Of a stretch of DNA of 24,733 nucleotides, positions 12,803 through 18,920 are shown one piece after another. The stretch lies in IMG/VR virus record IMGVR_UViG_3300021432_000096, positions 1 through 24,733 of that record, one strand, 5' to 3'. The position numbers and the translations under genes are program-made. Within the stretch, counting starts at the first letter, position 1; every line of letters starts with the position of its first letter. Source of the DNA: a virus. Below the pieces are notes generated by a model. The model saw nothing but the letters and a program-made list of their open reading frames with translations. It was not told the origin of the DNA and did not search any database.

Positions 12803-13378
12803 TCAGTAACCGAATAGCAGGCAGGTAAACGCTTCCGTGCCGCTCACCAGCGCGGTGCCGTTACTGGTCTCGGTACCGCCGCTGTTGAAGAGCTTGATCC
12901 GGAGGGTGCCCGGGCTGCCCGCCGTCGTAATGAGCACGGGCAAGCGTCCGTTGACACTCGGGCTACAGACATACCCGATGATCTGGTTGAGGCCGATGCG
13001 CCCGCGCTGGGCAGCAGTCAGGAGCGTGCCCCCCGTCGCGTAGGTGCCCCCGTTCGGATTGAACGTGGTCAGGTACTCGAAGAGGTGCCCCATGTTCATC
13101 CGGACGTTGCACTTCCCGGCGTTGGCCGCAGGCGTCGCGCTGACGCAGCAGGCCACCGGAGCACCCGCCCCGGTACAGTTAGTCGGGAGGACCACCGTCC
13201 ATCCGAAGGCCGGCAGCGTCGTCGTGGTCGTGGTTGGCGCGGCCGTCGTCGTGGTCGACGCAACCGTGGTGGTCGTCGGCGCAGCCGTCGTCGTGGTCTG
13301 TGACCACGCCCGATGAGGCGCCCCGAGGAGCACCGCCAGTACCGCCAGTCCGAGTAGGCCCTTCATCATCCGCCGCAT
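12803..13378 (-). CDS. Secreted Thr-rich stalk protein (191 aa)
   Basis: The start chosen is ATG at 13378, because GGAGGAGG lies five to eight bases upstream and a signal peptide begins at once. The frame is open further upstream, but that part overlaps two other genes. The N-terminus is MRRMMKGLLGLAVLAVLLGA, with a likely cleavage after AWSQ near residue 27. A mucin-like stretch of Thr runs with Ala/Pro/Val interruptions follows (about residues 28-57), then a beta-rich domain with six Cys after the signal (including ACC and KC), typical of a disulfide-bonded exported domain. The end of the protein overlaps no gene and lies 7 bases before the portal start. A phage protein with a Sec signal and a Thr stalk is unusual. 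Function unknown; perhaps a surface protein of the infected cell. Confidence 0.8.
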   Translation of the reverse strand: MRRMMKGLLGLAVLAVLLGAPHRAWSQTTTTAAPTTTTVASTTTTAAPTTTTTTLPAFGWTVVLPTNCTGAGAPVACCVSATPAANAGKCNVRMNMGHLFEYLTTFNPNGGTYATGGTLLTAAQRGRIGLNQIIGYVCSPSVNGRLPVLITTAGSPGTLRIKLFNSGGTETSNGTALVSGTEAFTCLLFGY

Positions 13379-13389
13379 CCTAGCCTCCT

Positions 13390-13438
13390 CCGGGTCCTTC
13401 CCGGGTTTCGTTCCCGCCCGAGCATACGCACGCTCGGG
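13390..13438 (-). other. Two small hairpins in the leader of the secreted Thr-rich gene
   Basis: Between the stop at 13450 and the start at 13378 there are two inverted repeats. CCCGAGC and GCTCGGG (13417-13423 and 13432-13438) have an 8-base loop. CCGGG and CCCGG (13390-13394 and 13400-13404) have a 5-base loop. The second touches the GGAGGAGG ribosome-binding site, so it could limit initiation. No U-run follows on the minus strand, so neither is a good terminator. This is a possible translation or mRNA-stability element only. Confidence 0.35.
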
Positions 13439-13449
13439 GGCGATTTCAC

Positions 13450-13728
13450 CTACCCTCGGTTGCCCGACATCATCTTGTCGAGCATCTCCTGCCCGTGCTG
13501 CCACTCCGCCATCGGGACTTGGCGCCCATCGACCTCCACAAACTCGTTCCCCTTCTCGTCCCGAATGATGCCCGTCGGGCCCATCGGCATCTGCCCCCGA
13601 ACCACAGCAAGAGCGGTCGGATTGGCAAGAGCAAGGAGCTTGTCCACGAGGGCGGCGTTCTGTCCCCGGAGGTAGGCCAGCTCGGAGTCCCGGGCCTGAC
13701 AACCGAGGCAGACTAGCGGTGGTGCCAC
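13450..13728 (-). CDS. Small coiled-coil phage protein (92 aa)
   Basis: The proposed GTG start at 13728 overlaps the end of the 59-aa gene by 16 bases; there is no clear ribosome-binding site. The peptide starts MAPPLVCLGCQARDSELAYL, with a CxxC pair and a short heptad-like helix (LRGQNAALVDKLLALANP). A section MGPTGIIRDEKGNEFVEVDG, typical of a short beta-hairpin, follows, then a helical end. The open frame continues upstream to 13923, but that portion is out of character and overlaps two other genes. Small proteins of this style are often found beside phage portal genes; the function is not known to me. Confidence 0.65.
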   Translation of the reverse strand: MAPPLVCLGCQARDSELAYLRGQNAALVDKLLALANPTALAVVRGQMPMGPTGIIRDEKGNEFVEVDGRQVPMAEWQHGQEMLDKMMSGNRG

Positions 13729-15862: not shown

Positions 15863-15904
15863 GGGTCTACTCCTTTACGCCCGCCCAGGGGCGCTTTCCA
15901 CTCA

Positions 15905-16357
15905 CTAAGATATTCCCATCTCCGCTTCGCAATCGATCACCAGTGCCGTCGCCGTGCCCGACCCGCCCACGATGAACTTGTTGGTATCGCCAGAATCGAG
16001 TCGCAGGAGCCCGTACCAGTCGAAGGCACTATTCGCTGCCACGGAGAGGGCCGTCCCGATGATCTCCGTCCCGGCGACGTTCCCGGCGCTCGCCCCCTTG
16101 TAGAGGGAGAAAGTCGCGGCGGAGCCGGTTTTGTTCACGATCCGACAGTGCCGGATGATGTAGAACGTGTTGGTCGTTTGCTCCGGCACGCCCGTCCCAC
16201 CGGTGGTCGTCGGGGGACTAAAGATGTTGGTCGTGAGTGTGCTGCTCAAGGTGACGGGGCCGAGCGTCACGATCTTGTTCGGCGCGGCCAGGGCCGCGGT
16301 GGCGAGCCCCCACCCGAGCAGACTCACCAGCAGCAGGTTCTTCGTCAGATTCTTCAT
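15905..16357 (-). CDS. Exported small beta-sandwich protein (150 aa)
   Basis: The start chosen is ATG at 16357, because AAGGAG lies seven bases upstream and a signal peptide begins there; an upstream in-frame start would overlap the collagen-like gene. The N-terminus MKNLTKNLLLVSLLGWGLAT ends in ALAAPN, a standard signal peptidase site. The mature domain is beta-rich (VTLGPVTLSSTLTTNIFSPP, YIIRHCRIVNKTGSAATFSL) with two Cys that could pair. It shares general size and strand pattern with the next two exported proteins. Function unknown. Confidence 0.8.
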   Translation of the reverse strand: MKNLTKNLLLVSLLGWGLATAALAAPNKIVTLGPVTLSSTLTTNIFSPPTTTGGTGVPEQTTNTFYIIRHCRIVNKTGSAATFSLYKGASAGNVAGTEIIGTALSVAANSAFDWYGLLRLDSGDTNKFIVGGSGTATALVIDCEAEMGIS

Positions 16358-16376
16358 CACATTCTCCTTATGCAGG

Positions 16377-18920
16377 TTAGCCACAGAACTCCAATCGCCA
16401 ATGCCCCGCCCACTTCATCGTTGCCGCCGCAGCCGAGACGTAGCCTGTCGTGAGCGCGTTGATATTCGTGCTCGCCTTCGCGTTCATTACCGTGCAGCCC
16501 GAGGCACCCGTCGAGGTCGTGTTGCCCGTCGCGCCGAGCGTGTCCGCGACGGTCACGTTCATGGTCGGCGTGCCGCTGCTGTCGGCGTCCGTCCACGACA
16601 CCTGCGCCGTCGGGATGGTCGAAGACGTGGCAACAGTCGTCAAGATGATCGTCGCACAGACGCGGTACATGCCCGCTCCGGGCGCCGTGCCCGTCGCGAA
16701 GAGGAGCGTCGAGCCGAGGTTGGCGGTCTGCGCCGTTTCATCGAGGTTCGCGACCTCGTGGCAGATACCCGCTTTCACGGTGGCAGTGCCAAGATTGTAG
16801 CGAGAGACGATCCCATTGACTGTCACATCGAAATTGCCCACGCCGCTGGAACCACCGACGGAAAAGGCATCAGTATAGGGCGCATTCGCGTTCGATATTG
16901 CCACGTTCCCATTCTCATCCATCGTGACCGCAGGAATACCACCCCCCACGCCACCCGCGTCGTAGAACAGACGCCCCGACGTTCCCCCGTACTCGAAGAA
17001 CGTGTTCGCGCCGTCCGTGTACCAGTCCGAGATTTTCGTGACGTTCCGTTGAAGCGTGATGCGTGGGATCGCCGCCGTCGTGCTATTGCCGCTCCGGACC
17101 GCGATCTCCGCCGTGTCCGTGCTGGTCGTGCCCTGACCCACGGTGAGCTTCTCGTTCGTCCCCGCCGTGCCAAACAGGTGGGTCGCTCCCTTTGCGGTGA
17201 AGTTGCCAGTATCCACGATGTTCGTATCGTCGTTCTGAAGCGCCGAGCTGGCTGCCCACGCGCCGCCAGTATTCCGAAGGGTCTGGTTCGCGGTCCCCGA
17301 CGGCAGCAACGATTGCGACGGGGAGTGGAAGAGCACCGGCTCATCATCCCCCGCGTACCCGTCAAGCCCCGGCATCCCGGCCCCGCCCGTTGCCCCGGTC
17401 GAGCCGGTGACACCCTGTGCTCCCGTGGAACCCGTCGGGCCGGTCGCGCCCTGCGCCCCCGTCGGACCCGTGGGCCCTGTCGGGCCCGTCGCACCTGTCG
17501 CCCCACCGCCGCCCGTGGCGCCCGTCGGTCCCGTTGGTCCGGTGACACCTTGGGCACCGGTCGGCCCCGTCGGACCCGTGACCCCCTGCGCGCCCGTCGG
17601 TCCGGTCGGCCCTTGCTGGCCCATCATCCCATCTTCGCCATCGATGCCGTCCTGACCATGGAGCCCCGTAGGCCCCGTAACACCCTGCGCCCCTGTCGGA
17701 CCCGTCACTCCTGTAGAACCAGTAGGCCCAGTAACTCCCTGAGCGCCAGTTGCCCCGGTCGGACCCGTAGCGCCCGCTGCGCCCGTCGGCCCGGTAGCAC
17801 CCTGAGCACCTGTGGCACCCGTCGCGCCGGTAGCGCCTGTTTGTCCCGTGGCACCTGTCACCCCCGTTGCTCCAGTTGCGCCCGTTGCTCCCACGGGTCC
17901 GGGCTCCCCGTCCTCTCCGTCCAGACCGGGTGGCCCGATCACTCCTTGTGCCCCGGTGGGTCCGGTCGAGCCAGTCGGTCCAGTCGCTCCGACTGCTCCA
18001 GTCGGCCCCGTAGCGCCTTGAGCACCCGTCGGTCCTGTTGCTCCTTGAGCGCCCGTAGCGCCTGTCGCGCCTGTGGGTCCAGTCGCTCCTTGGGCTCCGG
18101 TCGCCCCCGTCGCGCCGGCTGCGCCTGTCGGTCCCGTGACACCTTGCACCCCCTGCGATCCTGTTGGACCGGTCGGTCCAGGTATCCCTGGCTCACCATC
18201 CTCCCCGTCCATGCCGGGCGGCCCGATCAGCCCGGTAGCCCCTTGCGCTCCGGTCGGACCTGTGGGACCAGTAGCGCCCTGTGACCCTGTCGGACCTGTT
18301 GGGCCGGTCGACCCCTGCGAGCCAGTGGGTCCTGTGGGTCCAGTCAACCCCGCGCTACCTGTGGGGCCGGTGGTTCCTGTGGCCCCTGTTGGGCCAGTCG
18401 ATCCAGTGGCCCCCGTTGGTCCCGTGTCCCCCTGCGGACCTGTGGCTCCTGTGGAACCAGTTGGACCCGTGGAACCCTGGGCCCCCGTTGGTCCGGTGGC
18501 GCCCGCAACACCGGTAGGCCCTGTAGGGCCCTGAGAGCCCGTAGCGCCCGCTGGCCCAGTGGGGCCGGTAGGTCCGGTACTCCCGGTGTCGCCCGTGGCT
18601 CCAGATGGGCCTGTGGGCCCTGTCGCTCCCGTAGGACCGGCATTCCCAGTCGGACCCGTGGGGCCCGTCGGCCCGAGGGGGCCCGTAGGACCTGTCGGTC
18701 CCGTTGTGCCCGGGGCGCCTCCCGTTAGGGTGATGACCGTTCGCTTCCCGACGGTGTCATCCACGCACATCCCGGCGCCCTCGAAGTCCACGATCCGGCG
18801 CCTAAGCAGGGGCACGCTGCTGCATTGGATCTCTTGGTACGCCAGCTCCGAGAACGCCTGCGCCCATGCCACGCCGGGCAACAGGCTCCCGAGGAGCCCC
18901 AGTGCCCGGATCCACTTCAC
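16377..18920 (-). CDS. Exported collagen-like fibre protein (847 aa)
   Basis: GTG at 18920 overlaps the upstream stop (GTGA). The N-terminus [20 protein letters not shown] is a signal peptide, with cleavage expected after about residue 21. It is followed by a short domain with two Cys. Residues about 66-523 are G-x-y triplets dominated by GPTG and GATG. Four special blocks ([30 protein letters not shown] and [11 protein letters not shown]) sit in or at the end of the run. The last about 320 residues form a fibre head that starts [20 protein letters not shown] and contains four Cys. Collagen-like stalks are common in phage tail fibres and bacterial surface adhesins; the signal peptide is the odd feature. 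The triplets should form a rod-like trimer about 130 nm long if continuous. Confidence 0.85.
17350..18725 (-). repeat. Collagen-like G-x-y triplet repeat region
   Basis: About 458 residues of mostly GPT, GAT and GAQ triplets are encoded by 9-base-like degenerate units (GGT/GGA/GGG codons mixed with CCN ACN). The repeat is not perfect at the DNA level but is regular in frame. Length change by in-frame slippage or recombination is expected in such regions. Confidence 0.85.

Follow-up and report, generated by a model that had tools for sequence, protein, structure and literature searches.

The stretch of viral DNA analysed here, called the window, belongs to a tailed phage of soil and is the virus record IMGVR_UViG_3300021432_000096 at its full length of 24,733 bases. 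Its late genes form a block on the minus strand, in which an endolysin-type M15 peptidase gene and two genes without signal peptides are followed by five genes whose products begin with predicted Sec signal peptides. Small signal-less genes interpose ahead of the fifth of these. Beyond the block lie genes for the portal protein (with an intein), a probable scaffold, the major capsid protein (MCP) and the tail. The five signal-peptide genes are named here by their lower coordinate, in block order 16377, 15905, 15416, 14499 and 12803, with starts at 18920, 16357, 15862, 15419 and 13378, respectively (Table 1).

All five N-termini have a charged start, a hydrophobic core and a cleavage site of small residues, as an earlier note had described at these positions from the letters alone. 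Cleavage points were predicted from the -3/-1 rule and place the leader MKNLTKNLLLVSLLGWGLATAALA before APNK for start 16357, MMRWMRWMVLGLLLAVPGYA before VVPP for start 15862, MKCWTLLLLGFWALAVPRLA before APQ for start 15419 and MRRMMKGLLGLAVLAVLLGAPHRAWS before QTTT for start 13378. A rule-based detector that uses charge, hydrophobic core and small residues at -3/-1 called 15 of 15 known signal peptides and all five window genes, in agreement with the earlier note. Its single call elsewhere among the predicted proteins of the window was a false positive, on the HNH endonuclease. With filters for ribosome-binding site and length, five calls were made on the coding strand of the window and none on the other strand.

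It is very improbable that these are GC-rich starts that resemble signals by chance or artefact. The rule does give false positives, namely the HNH gene and two relatives of 15905, but under the same rule only eight calls were made in 569 kb of other phage DNA, which is less GC-rich than the window (0.54 versus ~0.66). This corresponds to 0.35 expected calls in the window (Poisson P = 3e-5), where signal starts are thus about 14 times commoner. Several of the eight control calls seem to be real signals, which puts the rate of false calls even lower. Furthermore, the starts at 16357, 15862 and 13378 have clear ribosome-binding sites ahead of them, those at 18920 and 15419 overlap the previous stop codon, and the signals are conserved in relatives. 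A stricter filter against longer overlapping frames lost true genes in GC-rich relatives, and its counts were not used for comparison.

Cysteines (Cys), which the earlier note had described as paired in most mature parts, are present in all five, in numbers that are not all even (6, 2, 4, 3 and 6 in block order). The note had also counted two proteins with collagen-like stretches or a threonine (Thr) stalk. Both features are present, in two collagen-like proteins (16377 and 14499) and a third with a Thr stalk (12803). A lipoprotein reading of the five was considered and ruled out, as a lipobox (L-x-x-C type), read for directly in the sequences, is absent from the end of all five signals.

The sequence of 15905 supports the view that its signal is an addition to an otherwise signal-less phage family. 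This family has 231 relatives in viral contigs, 80 of which were fetched, and eight in genome records; the 81 distinct proteins examined yielded no real signal peptide with the rule detector. The two calls made among them were rejected because they are located in mature sequence. The relatives begin at MAANK or similar, which is the point where the window signal ends, and the window copy carries a 24-residue leader ahead of this shared start. Homology spans the whole length at ~50-65% identity, while C71 and C143 of the window protein stand at positions where 0/73 aligned relatives have Cys and where I/V/L and G/A, respectively, mostly occur. Among the loci compared, the signal-bearing form was found in the window only. 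According to annotations of Xanthomonas phage PBR31, the relative sits between a tail fibre / tail-spike adaptor gene and internal-protein genes, with one or two hypothetical genes intervening between it and these neighbours. In G016, the relative is followed by a signal-less collagen-like gene. The structural model of 15905, of mediocre quality (predicted local distance difference test, pLDDT, 68), is jelly-roll-like, and its matches include the cement proteins KHP40 (Z 8.4) and Pam1 (Z 6.9) amid many viral jelly rolls.

Signals are also kept in the relatives of 12803 and 15416. Related phages were sought with the MCP as query, and the capsid protein is common to sixteen loci at 64-83% identity; known isolates gave distant MCP matches only, mostly Arthrobacter and Microbacterium phages at ~25% identity, and no match for the 12803 family. 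All nine 12803 relatives with readable starts have a signal, at 28-47% identity by local match. Six Cys are found in 9/10 members of the family and ten in the remaining member, and in most short relatives the shared mature start is directly preceded by an AxA motif. The 12803 model, likewise mediocre (pLDDT 70), had no PDB match with Z of 5 or more, and weak fibre-like matches only. For 15416, a signal is present in 3/3 relatives checked.

The earlier note had suggested a check of whether related phages keep the whole set together, and they do so for part of it. In ten contigs the portal gene has 12803 as its immediate upstream neighbour, and G006 and G012 each contain 15416 and 12803 along with a signal-bearing collagen-like protein; the signal-bearing form of 15905 does not recur, and no signal-bearing gene was seen in the available parts of the lineage comprising G002, G005, G010 and L005. 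In G006, G012 and G001, endolysin-type genes separate the signal-bearing collagen gene from 12803; in G007 they adjoin 12803. In G004, a portal-adjoining gene of 107 amino acids resembles a 12803 with no signal and one Cys (hhalign 90%, E 1.5e-6). The same locus has a signal-bearing block upstream of the portal gene (38471-45054; L038/L039), in which two products are very Cys-rich, one of 413 amino acids with 40 Cys and one of 849 amino acids with 28.

These families also bear on a reading in which the N-termini are not cleaved and serve as hydrophobic anchors for proteins of the virion or a membrane, which could, for instance, be inserted into the membrane of the host at entry. Some phage entry proteins do have hydrophobic N-termini, but the reading is improbable here: in the 12803 family, cleavage sites of small residues are repeatedly found directly ahead of the point where the common mature sequence begins, Cys accompany the signal, and complete 15905-type proteins occur in other phages without any such segment.

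The two collagen-like proteins point to tail fibres. The long Gly-X-Y repeat of 16377 matches Collagen PF01391 (E 6.9e-67), and the protein matches phage tail-fibre PHROGs largely through composition, whereas 14499 has a short collagen-like stretch and a weaker tail-fibre PHROG match (E ~1e-6). The segment that follows the signal of 16377 is also found in a signal-bearing, fibre-sized protein at the same place in G004, and signal-bearing collagen-like proteins are present in G006, G012 and G001. The C-terminal domain of 14499 occurs in signal-less fibres of other phages. In G024 and L134, such a signal-less collagen-like fibre, with this domain and few or no Cys, lies directly upstream of the 15905 relative. 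Both neighbours are signal-less in G024 and L134 but signal-bearing in the window, where the pair would therefore appear to be exported together.

A similar pattern was found further afield. The control DNA revealed signal-bearing proteins in other phages, one of them from an unrelated small jelly-roll-like family of 31 members. At least two mature Cys are present in 6/7 members with a signal and in 0/24 without (Fisher 9.5e-6); three signal-bearing members have a common Cys pair and three have Cys elsewhere, and some four changes of signal state are needed on the family tree. No sequence link emerged when 15905, 15416 and this third jelly-roll-like family were compared as profiles, so the gain of Cys in 15905 and in the third family was counted as separate. 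Runs of signal-bearing genes were also observed in L211, another phage lineage, where three consecutive ones (1343-2764) stand directly before the terminase and portal genes, and in L187, where three are adjacent (2168-5265).

In summary, the sequences support signals that are present, conserved, or added to at least one signal-less family, with accompanying Cys. The exported module proposed in the earlier note is well supported by signals conserved in divergent relatives and by Cys that appear with the signal in several families, and the five proteins are very probably exported and oxidised. Such proteins might also be secreted host proteins that were captured as accessory genes and are unrelated to virions. 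The Thr-rich stalks look bacterial, as does the large LVIVD beta-propeller gene, which has several long Thr-rich stretches, runs to the window end with its start beyond it, and may encode a sixth exported protein. Nevertheless, signal-less relatives of 15905 and 14499 are found in structural modules of many phages and 12803 is kept beside the portal gene in ten contigs, which makes capture from the host slightly less probable even than membrane anchoring.

The explanation favoured here, to which we give a probability of roughly 0.45 as a whole, is that the block encodes virion-type appendage proteins (collagen-like fibres and small proteins of beta-sandwich or jelly-roll type) that have been rerouted through Sec. 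They would be made late, threaded through SecYEG and cut by signal peptidase I. Folding and disulfide formation would follow outside the cytoplasm, at the time when heads are being filled within it. Once lysis mixes the compartments, the preformed fibre and cement pieces would dock at sites left exposed on completed virions. The attachment step is proposed because tailspikes, tail fibres and decoration proteins, as in P22, T4 and phage L, are generally able to bind, outside the cell, to particles that are already complete. It is further favoured because 15905 keeps a whole virion-type sequence and because endolysin-type genes are found inside or beside the block in relatives. Even so, attachment to virions after lysis is tentative, and we hold it to be slightly short of an even chance.

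The strong rival is that the proteins are exported and do not join virions, acting instead as envelope-bound or released receptor-blocking decoys, soluble copies of fibre or receptor-binding domains (against superinfection, or to keep progeny from being lost on debris), or as a coat with an adhesive role. This comes near to the earlier note's suggestion of a coat or fibrils on the infected cell. All of the evidence for export applies equally to this reading, the Thr stalks and the beta-propeller gene resemble extracellular proteins, and a soluble decoy or coat is suggested by 14499 and two L187 proteins, which are without the N-terminal part of their signal-less relatives. On the other hand, 15905 retains its whole virion-type sequence, the genes are located among those for structure and lysis, and Pfam matched no anchor, sorting motif or outer-membrane barrel. 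On balance, we regard a decoy or coat as somewhat less likely than fibres and cement fitted to virions.

Several points weigh against the favoured explanation. The N-terminal region missing from 14499, in whose place the signal peptide stands, is present in the signal-less relatives of G024 and L134 and is probably the docking part, and the matches of the two signal-bearing L187 proteins to PHROG tail proteins are confined to the C-terminal part of the latter. The middling Z scores of the fold matches may only reflect a common arrangement. In the tree of the unrelated jelly-roll-like family, a single comparison of signal and Cys falls on well-supported branches, and the association may be due to descent within that family. 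Export, cleavage, disulfide formation and location in the virion are inferred throughout. Finally, searches gave no host, with or without a periplasm: a pattern search of the GTDB genome collection with the MCP alignment found nothing, and when whole genomes were searched around three loci, a single partial match came from the 396 genomes of one phylum and no match from the 291 of a second, the third group being represented by one genome.

Table 1. Positions of the five signal-peptide genes and of other features in the window
Feature	Coordinates	Strand	Remarks
Collagen-like fibre-type protein, 847 amino acids, signal peptide ~18861-18920	16377..18920	-	GTGA overlap with previous gene
Small jelly-roll-like protein, 150 amino acids, signal peptide ~16286-16357, Cys 71 and Cys 143	15905..16357	-	
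Small protein, 148 amino acids, signal peptide ~15803-15862, 4 Cys in mature part	15416..15862	-	
Short collagen-like protein, 306 amino acids, signal peptide ~15360-15419	14499..15419	-	ATGA overlap with previous gene
Thr-stalk protein adjoining portal gene, 191 amino acids, signal peptide ~13301-13378, 6 Cys	12803..13378	-	
Signal-less coiled-coil protein, coupled to collagen-like gene 16377 and lying just upstream of it	18917..19930	-	Same place in G004
Small protein without signal	19935..20348	-	Relative at same place in G004 and G011
Endolysin-type M15 peptidase	20345..20701	-	Peptidase_M15_4 E 2e-6; endolysin PHROG E 2.7e-10
Portal protein with intein, directly downstream of signal-gene block	9644..12796	-	
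Portal intein	11777..12568	-	~Residues 77-340
Major capsid protein (MCP)	7259..8548	-	phrog_14242 E 6.5e-45
LAGLIDADG homing-endonuclease-like gene	13916..14452	+	E 1.4e-10
HNH/AP2 endonuclease gene	21075..21608	-	
LVIVD beta-propeller protein	21921..24733	-	
Tail protein	283..2841	-	

Among other features of the window, the portal intein has intein-splicing and Hint matches; the portals of related phages are without an intein. The LAGLIDADG-like gene, on the strand opposite to the block, separates two starts of a small basic gene (MARRWVQKAIKR at ~14481 and MAKKWVQDAIKR at 13892) that is a single copy in relatives, and the HNH/AP2 endonuclease gene lies amid the late genes. In the tail protein, a motif is repeated three times (FILDVSHLDVDALGG, FILDQSHLDVDRLGDG and FILDVSRLDVDRLGG). 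A tRNA scan of the window and the scanned relatives found none.

To our knowledge, tailed phages are not known to build outer parts anywhere but in the cell interior, and their virions are taken as built wholly in the reducing cytoplasm. In the open-access papers searched, no description was found of signal-bearing fibre, jelly-roll or decoration proteins of tailed phages with matching Cys, which is weak evidence of absence. If the favoured explanation or its strong rival is true, the block would represent either an extracytoplasmic folding route for tailed-phage virion proteins or a phage-made extracellular decoy. The broader proposal, that tailed phages assemble part of the virion outside the cytoplasm, with Sec-exported, disulfide-bonded fibres or cement fitted at lysis and the route adopted repeatedly by adding leaders to virion genes, is a little more tentative than the explanation for this block. 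A signal together with extra Cys on a virion-type family provides a simple sequence signature for finding similar cases.

Several known systems resemble parts of this block. Collagen-like tail-fibre proteins (PF01391; phrog_6320, 5073 and 1806) share the Gly-X-Y repeat, the place in the structural module and the C-terminal domain of 14499; the window proteins differ by their signal peptide and Cys, and 14499 by being without the usual N-terminal part. Members of the 15905 family, such as PBR31 orf28 (annotated 'acetyltransferase'), are alike over the whole length and sit beside fibre or tail genes, and among aligned relatives the window copy alone differs by a signal peptide and two Cys. The capsid cement proteins KHP40 and Pam1 may share the jelly-roll fold of the 15905 model, with no sequence match, and we know of no export of either. 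Known phage-encoded exported proteins include exclusion lipoproteins, spanins and filamentous coat proteins. Of these, the filamentous-phage coat proteins pIII and pVIII are virion proteins with Sec signal peptides, but filamentous phages assemble at the inner membrane without lysis, and their coat proteins have no homology to the window proteins. Superinfection-exclusion lipoproteins (T5 Llp, Cor type) are likewise phage-encoded and exported; however, they are small lipoproteins that are not derived from virion proteins, whereas the window signals are without a lipobox.

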